A stretch of DNA of 64,000 bases, from positions 466,052 through 530,051 of the forward strand of contig FCOD02000001.1 of the NCBI GenBank assembly GCA_001544655.2, in the 5' to 3' direction. The DNA is from Caballeronia turbans (GTDB lineage: Bacteria; Pseudomonadota; Gammaproteobacteria; Burkholderiales; Burkholderiaceae). Positions within the stretch are counted from its first letter, which is position 1; each line of letters begins with the position of its first letter. The notes under the pieces were generated by a model, which saw only the letters and a list, made by a program, of their open reading frames with translations, had not been told where the DNA came from and searched no databases. The position numbers and the translations under genes are program-made. This document shows, piece after piece, positions 57,944-62,998 of this stretch.

Positions 57944-58711
57944 CTACGCCGAGCCCTTGGTCAACCGGTCGATGACGGAACTCACGAGATCGACCGGCAC
58001 CGGAAAGATGATCGTCGAGTTCTTGTCGCCGGCGATCGACGTCAGGGTTTGCAGATAGCGCAGTTGCATCGCCTGCGGCGCCTGCGCGAGCATCTGCGCG
58101 GCCTGCAAGAGCTTTTCGGACGCCTGCAACTCCCCTTCCGCATGAATGATCTTCGCGCGGCGCTCGCGCTCCGCTTCGGCCTGTCGGGCGATCGCGCGGA
58201 TCATCGTCTCGTTGATGTCGACGTCTTTGATCTCGACGTTCGATACCTTGATGCCCCACGCGTCGGTCTGCGAATCGAGCACACGCTGAATGTCGGCGTT
58301 GAGGCGCTCGCGCTCGGACAGCAGTTCGTCTAGCTCGTGCTTGCCGAGGATCGCGCGCAGCGTGGTCTGCGCGAGCTGGCTCGTCGCTTCGAGAAAGCGG
58401 GCGACCTGGATCACCGCCTTCTCCGGATCGACGACACGAAAGTACACGACCGCATTCACTTTCACCGAGACGTTGTCGCGCGTGATGACGTCCTGCGGCG
58501 GCACGTCGAACACGACGGTGCGCAAGTCCATGCGCACGACCTGCTGCACGACCGGAATGATCAGCACGAGCCCCGGTCCTTTCACTTTCCAGAAGCGGCC
58601 GAGCATGAACACGACGCCGCGCTCGTACTCGCGAAAGATGCGCACCGCCGATGCGACGATGAAGATGACGAACGCAATCAGGATGCCGCTGAAACCAAAG
58701 GTAAGCCCCAT
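57944..58711 (-). CDS. Slipin (SPFH/stomatin-family) membrane protein
   Basis: This 255-residue protein has an N-terminal membrane segment (about 5-25) and the SPFH/band 7 domain: [44 protein letters not shown], and then a coiled coil [23 protein letters not shown]. It forms large assemblies in lipid microdomains. The NfeD gene upstream (25 bases away) is its usual partner: NfeD proteases cleave or regulate the slipin. Confidence 0.93.
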
Positions 58712-58736
58712 TTTCCAAGCCTCTTCGTCGATGTGT

Positions 58737-60143
58737 TCAGGAGTGACCGGCCTCGCGTTCGCCGTCGATCGGCTCGACGGTCAGCGTCAGGCCTTGACGC
58801 GAGATCACGCGCACGCGCGCGCCTTCGTGCGGCAACGCCCGCGACGCGGCCGGCTGCACGCGCCATCGTTCGCCCCGCACGCGCGCCCAGCCGCTTTCGG
58901 ACTCGTGCGCCAGCATCACGCCGATGCTGCCGAGCATCGCTTCGCCGCCGCTCACGACAGGCCGCTTGCGCGCCCGCAACGCGACGCCCGACACGGTGAA
59001 AACGAACAGCGCCGTGAAAAGCGCGAGCCCGATGACGACGCCGATGGGAATGCCGAAGCCCGGCACGTCCGTATCGATCAGCATGAGCGCGCCGATCGCG
59101 AACGCGATGACGCCGCCGATGCCGAGCGAGCCGAACGTCGGCAGAAACATTTCCGCGACCAGAAAGCCCATGCCGAGCACGATCAAGCCGAGTCCGACGA
59201 AACTGATCGGCAATAGTTGCAGAGCAAACAATCCGACGAGCAGGCAGATCGCGCCCGCCACGCCCGGCAGCACCATGCCGGGATTCGCGAACTCGAAGAA
59301 GAGCCCGTACATGCCGATCATCATCAGAATCAGCGCGACGCTCGGGTCCGTGATCGTCGCGAGAAAGCGGCTGCGCCAGTCGGGTTGCACGACGACGAGC
59401 GGCGCGTGTTTCGTCGCGAGAACGTGATCGCCGCTCACGGTTTTGACACGACGGCCGTCGAGCTTGGCGAGCAGGTCGGGAACATCGTTGGCGGTGAGGT
59501 CGATGACGTTCTGCGCCAGCGCTTCCGTCGCCGACAGCGCGACCGCCTCGCGCACCGCGCGCTCCGCCCATTGCGCGTTGCGTCCGCGCAGTTGCGCGAG
59601 GCCGCGGATGTAGGCGGCGGCGTCCTGCATCTGCTTGCGGGTTTCGGTCGATTGCCCGGCGGGTTCGGCGCGTGCGCCCGATGCGGCCTTGCCCGTGCCC
59701 GCCGGCTCGCGCTCCGGTCCGCCCAAGCCGAGCTGCACCGGCGACGCCGCGCCGAGGTTCGTGCCCGGCGCCATCGCCGCGACGTGGCTCGCGTAGGTGA
59801 TGTACGTGCCGGCGCTCGCCGCACGCGCACCGCTCGGCGCAATGAACGCGGCCACCGGCACCGGGGACGCAAGGATCGCCTGGATGATCGAGCGCATCGA
59901 GAGATCGAGCCCGCCCGGCGTATCGAGTTCCAGCACGGCGAGCTGCGCGCGCTCGTCCGCTGCCCGGGCAAGCGCGCGCACGACGAAATCCGCGCTAGCC
60001 GGGCCGATCGCACCCTTCAGCGGAATCACGACGACCGGCGCGGTCGCGGCGGCGGGCGCGCTCATCGGCGCGAGTGCAAACCCGATCAGCAACAGCGCGC
60101 AGCGTGCGCAAGTCCACAGCCAGTCGGCGAGGTTCGTTCTCAT
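58737..60143 (-). CDS. NfeD-family long membrane serine protease, slipin partner
   Basis: This 468-residue protein has a signal or anchor peptide and a ClpP-like serine protease domain (about 35-230), with the nucleophile expected at Ser110 in [10 protein letters not shown]. Several membrane helices follow (about 255-390), and a C-terminal OB-fold NfeD domain (about 400-460). It is the full-length (NfeD1b) form. It acts with slipin in membrane protein quality control. A low-complexity Gly/Ala/Glu insertion ([19 protein letters not shown], about 145-163) lies in the protease domain. Operon with the slipin gene. Confidence 0.9.
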
Positions 60144-60828: not shown

Positions 60829-61248
60829 ATGAAACAGGCACTCCACCATCTGACGGTCGCGACAGGCTCGCGCGGCCTGCACGAAGTCACCCGCGACATC
60901 GACCGCTGGATCGATCTTCAGGACATTCGCACCGGCCTGCTCACGCTGTTTTGCCGGCATACGTCGGCATCGCTGCTGATTCAGGAGAACGCCGATCCCG
61001 ACGTGCGCGCGGACCTCGAGCGCTACTTCGAGGCGGTGGCGCCCGAAGCGCCCGGCCGCTACGTGCACGACACCGAAGGCCCCGACGACATGCCCGCGCA
61101 CCTGCGCACCGCCCTCACCTCCGTGCAGCTTTCGATTCCCGTCGAGGCGGGCCGCATGGTGCTCGGCACGTGGCAAGGCATCTACATCTTCGAGCATCGG
61201 ACGGCGCAGCATCAGCGCGAGCTCGTCTTGCATCTGATCGGCGAGTGA
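60829..61248 (+). CDS. YjbQ-family protein (UPF0047, secondary thiamine-phosphate synthase)
   Basis: This 139-residue protein matches UPF0047: GLLTLFCRHTSASLLIQENADPDVRADLE, then HDTEGPDDMPAHLRTAL and GTWQGIYIFEHRT. E. coli YjbQ has weak thiamine-phosphate synthase activity, and the true role is uncertain. His residues of the signature form a metal site. The start is ATG 60829. The next gene, an aspartate carbamoyltransferase, begins 33 bases after its stop, with a palindrome in between. Confidence 0.92.
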   Translation: MKQALHHLTVATGSRGLHEVTRDIDRWIDLQDIRTGLLTLFCRHTSASLLIQENADPDVRADLERYFEAVAPEAPGRYVHDTEGPDDMPAHLRTALTSVQLSIPVEAGRMVLGTWQGIYIFEHRTAQHQRELVLHLIGE

Positions 61249-61251
61249 CCT

Positions 61252-61272
61252 AATATACGCACCGCGTATATT
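61252..61272. promoter_or_regulatory. 21-base palindrome before the HTH-carbamoyltransferase gene (site 1)
   Basis: AATATACGC (61252-61260) and GCGTATATT (61264-61272) are perfect arms around ACC. The site ends 9 bases before the GTG start and begins just after the yjbQ stop. A near-copy lies inside the following gene at 61500-61518. An operator for the encoded HTH is a natural hypothesis. Confidence 0.65.
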
Positions 61273-61281
61273 CAGGGAGCG

Positions 61282-62571
61282 GTGACGGTGACTCAGGACC
61301 TTCAGCAGCAGACGATTCTTCGTGACGCCATGCGGCGTCTGAACATGACCCGCGATGCCTTCGCGTCGCGCATCGGCGTGACACGGCGGGCGCTCGATAC
61401 GTGGCTGCTGCCGGACGAATCGCCGGAATCGCGGGCGATGCCGGAAATTGCGGCGCGCTATGTCGGCGAGATTCTGGGCGGCATGCCGGAAGCGGGTACA
61501 TATACGCAAAGCGCATATCAGACAATCGAATTCGAAGGCCGCCCGCAACTGCTCTCGATCGACCAGTTTTCGCGCGAATCCGCCGAGGCGCTGTTTCGCA
61601 CGGCCGACATGATGCAGCCCATCGCGCGCCGCAAGAAGATCACGCGCGTACTGGAAGGCGCGGTGCTGGCCAACCTGTTCTTCGAGGCCAGCACGCGCAC
61701 GCGAGTGAGTTTCGGCGCGGCGTTCGCGCGTCTCGGCGGCTCGGTCTGCGACACCACGGGATTCACGTTTTCGTCGATGGCCAAGGGCGAGTCGATTTAC
61801 GACACGAGCCGCGTCATCAGCGGTTACGCGGATGCGATCGTCGTGCGGCATCCCGAGCAAGGCTCCGTCGCGGAATTCGCGCGCGCGACGAACATTCCTG
61901 TCATCAACGCCGGCGACGGTCCGGGCGAGCATCCCAGCCAGGCGCTGCTCGATCTCTACACGATCCAGCGCGAGTTTTCGCGTCTCGGGAAGATCGTCGA
62001 TGGCGCGCATATCGCGATGGTCGGTGACCTGAAGTACGGCCGCACCGTGCATTCGCTCGCCAAGCTGCTCTCGCTTTACAAGGGGCTGAAGTTCACGCTC
62101 GTCTCGCCGCGTTCGCTCGAAATGCCGGCGCATATCGTCGAGCGCATCGCGCGTGGCGATCACGTGATCGAACAAACGAGCGACCTGCGCGCGGGGCTCG
62201 CGGGCGCGGACGTCGTGTACGCAACGCGCATTCAGAAAGAGCGTTTCGCCGACGAACCCATCGAAGGTTATACGCCCGATTTTCAGATCAACCAGGCGCT
62301 CGTCGATGATGCGTGCGGACGCGATACGCTCATCATGCATCCGCTGCCGCGCGACAGCCGCCCAGGGGCGAACGATCTCGCCACCGATCTGAATCACGAC
62401 TCGCGCCTCGCCATCTTTCGCCAGACCGACAACGGCATTGCCGTGCGCATGGCGATCTTCGCGGTGCTGCTGGGGGTCGAGCATCAGGTGCGTCATTCGA
62501 TGCGCGACGCGGCGTGGAAGTCGCCTGCTTCCATCGGCCCGGACGATGCCGTGTTCCCGGGTTTCGATTGA
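61282..62571 (+). CDS. pyrB: Aspartate carbamoyltransferase with an N-terminal HTH domain
   Basis: This 429-residue protein has two parts. Residues about 12-65 look like an XRE-type helix-turn-helix (LRDAMRRLNMTRDAF, GVTRRALDTWLLP). From about residue 80 it is a full aspartate carbamoyltransferase: STRTR (137-141), the 80s-loop Lys at 168 (SMAKGES), GDGPGEHPSQALLDLYTI, GDLKYGRTVHSL and HPLPRDSRPG. All catalytic motifs are intact. ATCase makes carbamoyl aspartate in pyrimidine synthesis; usual catalytic chains are about 310 residues. The GTG start has AGGGAG upstream. The palindromes before and inside the gene suggest autoregulation. It may be a second, non-canonical ATCase. Confidence 0.88.
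   Translation: MTVTQDLQQQTILRDAMRRLNMTRDAFASRIGVTRRALDTWLLPDESPESRAMPEIAARYVGEILGGMPEAGTYTQSAYQTIEFEGRPQLLSIDQFSRESAEALFRTADMMQPIARRKKITRVLEGAVLANLFFEASTRTRVSFGAAFARLGGSVCDTTGFTFSSMAKGESIYDTSRVISGYADAIVVRHPEQGSVAEFARATNIPVINAGDGPGEHPSQALLDLYTIQREFSRLGKIVDGAHIAMVGDLKYGRTVHSLAKLLSLYKGLKFTLVSPRSLEMPAHIVERIARGDHVIEQTSDLRAGLAGADVVYATRIQKERFADEPIEGYTPDFQINQALVDDACGRDTLIMHPLPRDSRPGANDLATDLNHDSRLAIFRQTDNGIAVRMAIFAVLLGVEHQVRHSMRDAAWKSPASIGPDDAVFPGFD
61500..61518. promoter_or_regulatory. Near-copy of the palindrome inside the pyrB coding region (site 2)
   Basis: ATATACGC (61500-61507), AAA, GCGCATAT (61511-61518) differs from site 1 in one arm base. It encodes residues 73-79, right at the junction between the HTH and the enzyme domain. 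The two sites start 247 bases apart. It may be a second operator, or the relic of an operator from before the HTH was fused. Confidence 0.5.
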
Positions 62572-62665: not shown

Positions 62666-62998
62666 ATGGATATGTCGCTTGCGTGGGTTGCCAGCCGCGG
62701 AACATTACACGATGAAGGGTTCGGCACGTGCCAGCGAGTGCGCGTTCTGGCGCTGGCGCATTTCGCGGATAGCGAGGCGTCGCGGGAGCGCATACGCGCG
62801 CTGTTTCATTCGCCGCTTGGCATTTATGTGAGTCAGGCGCAGCGAGAAGGCTGCGAATTGCGACTCGAATTCGATACGGCGAGTGAAGATCTCGCCTTTA
62901 CGTTGCGCACGCTGAAACGCGTGCTGCCGGAAGCGCGTGTCGAGGGAATCGCGCCGCGCGTGTTCGCGCATCGGGCATGCGCGCGCGGCGGGAGCTGA
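62666..62998 (+). CDS. Hypothetical protein
   Basis: This 110-residue protein has no recognised family. It starts at ATG 62666, 94 bases after pyrB. The middle (GCELRLEFDTASEDLAFTLRTLKRVLPEARVEGIAPRVF) reads like an alpha/beta fold with a helix of Arg/Leu spacing, and resembles small ACT-like proteins of unknown role. The function is unknown. Confidence 0.55.
   Translation: MDMSLAWVASRGTLHDEGFGTCQRVRVLALAHFADSEASRERIRALFHSPLGIYVSQAQREGCELRLEFDTASEDLAFTLRTLKRVLPEARVEGIAPRVFAHRACARGGS

Follow-up and report, generated by a model that had tools for sequence, protein, structure and literature searches.

The window, a stretch of 64,000 nucleotides of the Caballeronia turbans genome, contains a gene for aspartate carbamoyltransferase (ATCase) with a helix-turn-helix (HTH) domain at its N terminus (61282..62571, forward strand), which starts with GTG and encodes 429 amino acids. 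A second GTG is located at 61288, and by reading, the AGGGAG at 61274-61279 is better spaced for this codon than for 61282. The product belongs to the ATCase family PRK11891 of NCBIfam, the model of which (NF008853) matches residues 7-429 with 795.9 bits against a curated cut-off of 560. The catalytic part (residues 89-429, 61546..62568, forward strand) matches Pfam OTCace_N and OTCace, both above cut-off and together spanning residues 90-395, and carries the motifs FFEASTR (FxExSTR, residues 133-139), RIQKER (RxQxER, residues 316-321) and HPLP. The first two, named as ATCase motifs in PMC4581275, are invariant across 32 aligned sequences. The best matches in the PDB are ATCase chains, with those of E. 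coli ATCase at E about 1e-57. Domains and motifs thus indicate that the 429-residue protein is a complete aspartate carbamoyltransferase. An open reading frame of 110 residues located 3' of the gene (62666-62998, forward strand) has no Pfam match above cut-off and no NCBIfam match, and a gene pair coding for SPFH (Band 7) and NfeD proteins lies in the near region on the reverse strand (57944-60143).

The N-terminal HTH domain (residues 9-66, 61306..61479, forward strand) is predicted to comprise helices 3-20, 24-31, 35-41 and 55-66. Structure prediction of the N terminus, proposed in an earlier note on this DNA, gave for residues 1-73 an XRE-like four-helix domain of moderate confidence (pLDDT 70), with Aca1, HipB, C.AhdI and phage 434 Cro as structural neighbours, none of them at a Foldseek E value of 0.001 or lower; a model of the full-length protein was rejected as too poor (pLDDT 49). 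The resemblance to Aca1, HipB and C-proteins (PDB 7c0g, 4pu4, 1y7y) is one of fold only, with about 10-20% identity and middling Z scores, and the HTH profile matched nothing below E 0.08 among PDB sequences. The Pfam family HTH_3 (XRE) matched weakly all 26 family members with which it was compared (best E 0.00069). The earlier description of an HTH at about residues 12-65 joined to a complete ATCase is borne out for the enzyme by domains and motifs and favoured for the HTH by the predicted four-helix fold and the existence of stand-alone homologues, although the domain of this protein scores 15.6 bits with HTH_3, below the gathering cut-off of 23. The third helix (35-41), which includes T40, is the predicted recognition helix; residue 40 presumably corresponds to Gln33 of 434 repressor. 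The interdomain linker (residues 67-88, 61480..61545, forward strand) is variable in an alignment of 81 genes, except for the codons that spell the second of two palindromes, O2.

Both palindromes are putative operators. O1 (ATATACGC-ACC-GCGTATAT, 61253..61271) is a perfect 8+3+8 palindrome located before the gene, over promoter-like elements; its extended arms (61252-61272) end 9 bases before 61282, as claimed in the earlier note, and 15 bases before 61288. O2 (ATATACGC-AAA-GCGCATAT, 61500..61518) has one mismatch and lies inside the gene, where it covers the last base of codon 73 and the whole of codons 74-79 in the linker, and the near-copy described at codons 73-79 between the HTH and the enzyme is confirmed. 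Scanning of the window with up to three mismatches to the palindrome revealed three matches, against a mean of 0.15 and a largest value of 1 in 100 shuffles. In the suggested search of the whole 7.35 Mb genome, O1 and O2 were the only places within two mismatches of ATATACGCNNNGCGTATAT; with up to three mismatches there are 15 places (one with none, which is O1, one with a single mismatch, which is O2, none with two and 13 with three), and the reversed-pattern control gives 9 with up to three and 0 with up to two. A regulon beyond the own gene was rejected, the genome containing no other site within two mismatches. A sigma-70 consensus scan found one promoter (mean of 0.1 in shuffles), GTGACC-16-TATATT (61245..61272, forward strand), a consensus match only, with the -10 element mostly within O1. 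An alternative promoter found by eye, also by consensus only, consists of TTGCAT (61228-61233) and TAATAT (61251-61256) separated by 17 bases, and O1 overlaps the -10 element of this reading as well. An operator-like site at the own promoter, characteristic of trigger enzymes, is represented by O1, which is conserved together with the HTH.

Conservation was analysed in the best 80 of 561 named relatives, two of which (L064 and L065) come from one genome; the nearest named neighbour is C. novacaledonica (98%). Upstream, the best site of these 80 loci differs at 0-4 of 16 positions, with at most two mismatches in 78 loci (the exceptions being L063 with three and L091 with four), and inside the gene the best site differs at 0-5, with at most three mismatches in 74, which shows the conservation of the palindromes in fusion-bearing orthologues that the earlier note had made a test of its proposal. 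All 61 unique left arms of ATCase O1 have G7, and 57 of the 61 right arms have the C that pairs with it. The spacing between O1 and O2 ranges from 235 to 281 bp across the named loci; fixed phasing of the two sites was rejected, and this variation argues against a rigidly phased loop. The upstream neighbour is yjbQ in 40 of the 80 named loci and, within the fetched flank, in none of 20 loci from the order (L123-L142) and none of 28 loci of family f4 (L166-L193). O1 is kept also where the neighbour is not yjbQ.

In a survey of the order comprising 399 genomes (E <= 1e-80), 26 contain a relative, 22 with the N-terminal domain (the own genome included) and 4 without it; the HTH-bearing relatives occur in several families of Burkholderiales. 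Among 369 genomes of the class, nine other matches were found, all beginning at residue 79 or later. One family was sampled deeper: 161 of its 250 genomes have a match, and 62 of these loci were examined, the best 28 first, then mostly one per genus, then small genomes. With 28 of the loci L123-L155, after removal of three duplicates, they make up a set of 90, in which sites were scored with a matrix derived from O1 of the named loci and counted at a score of at least 10. Of the 73 loci with an intact HTH, 71 have a site; none of 7 with a degenerate HTH and none of 10 where the HTH is absent has one, and a site is missing also from five more HTH-less loci (L143, L147, L148, L150 and L152). The palindromes go with the HTH (71/73 intact, 0/17 degenerate or absent), a check that the earlier note had proposed. 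In a phylogeny of the catalytic part, the distribution of the HTH needs two changes, which corresponds to one or two independent contrasts; the HTH was gained about once, and the counts over the 95 loci are therefore not independent observations.

The two loci with an intact HTH and no site, L218 and L228, are the only ones of the 73 with LDAW, carrying Ala at residue 40, rather than LDTW or LDSW. Both come from draft genomes of one genus (g454; 83% and 86% complete), and a third genome of this genus (L212), with LDSW, has the site. A coding stretch at -204 that mimics a site via FASRI codons was left out; otherwise L218 would be rescued with a score of 23.3. Three HTH-bearing genomes (G187, G213 and G285) have no site with up to two mismatches and weaker sites scoring at least 14; at this mismatch threshold the control matches as many places as the real pattern in some other genomes. 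The plasmid-collection ATCases of Comamonas, Variovorax and B. cenocepacia all have sites. An unfused HTH beside an HTH-less ATCase was found in none of 13 fetched loci (L143-L155). The degenerate HTHs keep 14-22 of 58 residues and belong to genomes of 0.8 Mb, judging by this size probably those of endosymbionts; the loss of HTH and site in such reduced genomes could be parallel drift. In genomes of 0.7-0.9 Mb (L141, L222-L227, L229 and L230) the catalytic part is kept, the HTH is degenerate (7) or gone (2), and there is no operator.

A profile search for the HTH in 61 genomes (E <= 0.01) revealed, besides the own gene with its copies and fragments and one weak match, stand-alone homologues in G031 and G008, the former a 74-residue protein encoded directly before a Fic gene. 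Searching plasmid records by tblastn gave 48 with the G031 protein and 46 with the HTH of the window; among the latter, the nine best matches (70-84% identity) are taken as ATCases, one being annotated so and two (L281 and L282) having been read. The stand-alone regulators comprise about 65-85 residues, occur on plasmids of Burkholderiales and Pseudomonas and in two Caballeronia genomes, and have Fic/Doc toxin, rep and par genes among their neighbours; those fetched from plasmids share 44-60% identity with the HTH of the ATCase. The regulator of L254 has no homologue at E <= 0.01 in the phage collection.

Twenty-four stand-alone loci, picked for variety, were examined (L254, L255, L258-L263 and L265-L280). 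By a strict criterion (at least 7 of 8 pairs, a 3-base spacer and TA in an arm), a palindrome of the 8+3+8 geometry is located near the gene in 12 of the 24. Seven others (L254, L255, L259, L263, L265, L267 and L274) have imperfect-looking palindromes, of which only that of L274 beats the best of 30 shuffles, with a template chosen after the fact; the one in L254 has long arms and a different spacer. Five of the 24 (L268, L273, L278, L279 and L280) contain no defensible palindrome. A palindrome lies between the HTH regulator and a Fic gene in L254 (2252-3330, reverse strand) and a Doc-type gene in L270 (683-1510); L280 has a Doc gene and no palindrome, and in L255 a gene that looks Fic-like by eye is on the other side. 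The stand-alone HTH and Fic/Doc may form a regulated module.

Although the stand-alone regulators are free-standing and share the operator geometry of the ATCases in these 12 of 24 loci, the bases of their half-sites differ, and they do so along with the residue that precedes the Trp of the recognition helix. With Lys before Trp (9 loci) the half-site is ATACCCCC or ATATCCCC, reading CCCC, with C at positions 5 and 7; with Asn (3 loci) it is ATATACTC, reading ACTC, with T7 and A5 in 11 of 12 arms; and with Thr or Ser, as in the ATCases, it is ATATACGC, reading ACGC. Lys-G and Asn-A contacts are common in protein-DNA recognition. The half-site bases go with residue 40, which may amount to a small natural recognition code; the site sets were chosen by likeness to a consensus, and their uniformity is therefore inflated.

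The places of the sites are shared as well. Measured from the Trp codon in the best 80 of 561 ATCases, O2 starts at +98 in 75 and at 95-104 in the rest, and O1 is found at -137 to -183. In 7 of the 24 stand-alone loci the palindrome corresponding to O2 lies at +99 to +101, close behind the stop codon, and in three the one corresponding to O1 at -149 to -153; both places are occupied by strict sites in L269 and L270, only that of O2 in five more and only that of O1 in L266. An arrangement of HTH gene and flanking 8+3+8 palindromes near -150 and +99 relative to the Trp codon, O1-hth-O2, is thus present among the stand-alone relatives. Other strict sites are located at +139 (L271) and at -278 to -304 (L262, L272 and L277). 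An ATCase of the E. coli type probably acquired such a cassette by fusion and retained both operators.

The earlier note had left open whether O2 is a working operator or a relic of the time before fusion, and the two readings merge: O2 looks inherited, because an operator stands at the same place, behind the stop codon, in 7 of 24 stand-alone relatives, yet codon use shows selection. All of 81 aligned genes (80 named loci and the gene of the window) have T at the end of codon 74, whichever of six amino acids it encodes (Tyr, Ser, Ala, His, Arg or Asn). At codon 78, Val is encoded by GTA in 59 of 59 cases and Ala by GCA in 22 of 22, while elsewhere in these genes GTA accounts for 5.1% of the codons for Val and GCA for 8.0% of those for Ala. 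When the genes are compared in 40 disjoint pairs, the codon is shared where the residue is the same in 31/31 cases at position 74, 37/39 at 75, 25/37 at 76, 35/36 at 77 and 34/34 at 78, against 0.74 gene-wide; the free third base is that of codon 76, which falls within the spacer of the palindrome. Ranked by synonymous codon identity, the six codons from residue 73 come second among 429 such stretches. The first place, and most of those that follow, belong to stretches starting at residues 169-176 (61786-61824, residues 169-181, GESIYDTSRV), which are level with O2. O2 is thus under selection as DNA, beyond the constraint on the protein, and codon use constrained beyond the amino acids indicates that this selection still operates. 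That O2 is merely a relic without present function, O1 alone working, is unlikely: its position agrees with that of the operator in the seven stand-alone relatives, and 25 of 73 loci do without an internal site scoring at least 9 (48 of 73 have one, and 52 have two such sites anywhere), but the rare codons and third bases that spell it are fixed in 81 genes while the amino acids vary, and six loci without an internal site (L137-L140, L142 and L264) have a second site upstream instead. O2 is weak or lost in some of the families.

The best reading, which we regard as very probable on these comparisons and as real, conserved and coherent, is an autorepressing ATCase with an inherited O1-hth-O2 cassette. 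In an ancestor within Burkholderiales, the autoregulatory cassette would have been joined, in the same reading frame, to an ATCase gene of the E. coli type, and O2 would have turned into the interdomain linker after the fusion. The HTHs would pair via the oligomeric enzyme and then bind O1, over the -10 element, and O2; the bound enzyme would repress its own transcription, the amount of ATCase, and perhaps its ligand state, setting expression. That the fused HTH reads its own two palindromes, the central proposal of the earlier note, is supported by the predicted fold, conservation in orthologues and co-occurrence with the HTH, and binding of the enzyme to these sites can be predicted with high confidence. 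Catalytic chains of ATCase form trimers and the operators are two-fold, and the HTHs should therefore pair between or within trimers. An effector and a loop between O1 and O2 belong to the conjectural part of the mechanism: one ATCase particle might bridge both sites via HTH dimers, with substrates or pyrimidine nucleotides opening or closing the loop, which is conceivable and rather doubtful. If such bridging takes place, the linker would be dual-coded, an operator as DNA and a hinge as protein.

Repression rather than activation is the likely outcome of binding, since O1 covers the -10 element of both promoter readings. It is quite improbable that the enzyme binds and acts as an activator of its own transcription, or that its main targets are other genes: a site at a promoter is compatible with either sign of regulation, and the stand-alone cassettes stand before other genes, but the overlap of O1 with both -10 elements favours repression and the own genome offers no further site within two mismatches.

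A lower probability still is assigned to the explanation that the sites belong to a separate regulator encoded elsewhere, with the HTH serving the enzyme only in its structure or in contacts between proteins. In its favour are the small number of phylogenetic contrasts and an O1-like motif before an IclR-like regulator in four f4 genomes. Against this explanation, the sites are missing where the HTH is lost or degenerate (0/17 and 0/5) and where residue 40 is Ala; the stand-alone homologues carry sister palindromes whose bases track the recognition helix and some of which lie equally far from the gene; and the own genome has no other site within two mismatches. The four f4 places belong to ten extra-site places that were fetched from other genomes; no shared context was seen for the remaining six. 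In each of the four (L156 3283, L157 3235, L158 3234 and L159 3318), an O1-like palindrome, AATTACGC or ATTTACGC with GCGTATAT, separates the gene of the IclR-like regulator from a Bug receptor/P450 locus (both named by eye from the translations), and another TTTACGC half lies close by. These sites are taken as those of another regulator and not as part of a regulon of the HTH-ATCase. The reading of the palindromes as RNA hairpins (attenuation, translation control or the end of the yjbQ mRNA), for which each could give a stem of 8-10 bp with a 3-base loop and 23 changes in O1 and 7 in O2 are wobble-compatible, was rejected and is barely credible, since one-sided changes that break pairs dominate (54 against 3 compensated in O1, 68 against 9 in O2), no terminator-like site was found, the sites shift between upstream and internal places, and half of the named loci, as well as all of 48 others within the fetched flank, have a neighbour other than yjbQ.

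ATCase is a textbook allosteric enzyme. That of E. coli shares the PyrB-type catalytic chain with the HTH-ATCase and has PyrI; the own genome lacks PyrI, and the HTH occupies the N terminus instead (no match to PF01948 in this genome, which is 99% complete, the control search being positive in 7 of 14). An ATCase with a repressor domain and no PyrI would solve the same problem of control in a different way. NadR is a further autorepressing enzyme alongside PutA and BirA. The latter two, trigger or moonlighting enzymes in PMC6978683, are likewise metabolic enzymes that repress genes of their own pathways, a kind to which the HTH-ATCase probably belongs; it differs from them in the enzyme, in the origin of the HTH, in the putative operator inside the coding sequence of the linker and in the mobile-element-like cassette. 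A self-regulating ATCase would thus belong to a known kind, enzymes that also repress transcription, and would be a new case of it as far as the open-access literature searched goes, where no report of an HTH-bearing ATCase or its operators was found; pyrB is absent from the accessible part of PMC5343134. The name of the PRK11891 model speaks of no regulatory domain; the present analysis adds the HTH, the putative operators and the genomes in which no other ATCase was found. The case would also show a path by which a regulator of mobile elements becomes a domain of a housekeeping enzyme, operators included.

Older biochemistry reportedly exists on the ATCase of Burkholderia cepacia. PMC4581275 describes an ATCase of Burkholderia of about 430 residues with the HPLP motif and leaves open a catabolic role of one of two ATCases; the present results bear on the role of the enzyme of about 430 residues. 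The search for a second pyrB proposed in the earlier note revealed a canonical PyrB on contig C68 of the own genome. In 9 of 24 HTH-bearing genomes tested (G033, G036, G134, G229, G242, G302, G360, G387 and G413), two of which (G033 and G036) were included with a prior result already pointing to a missing canonical PyrB, a match to canonical PyrB is lacking, which leaves the HTH-ATCase as the only ATCase found. For G033, completeness is 98% and contamination 6%, and in G413 the HTH is degenerate. The sole other match in these nine genomes is weak, with 25-28% identity, as for ornithine carbamoyltransferases. Being the only ATCase found there, the HTH-ATCase is therefore probably biosynthetic in these genomes.
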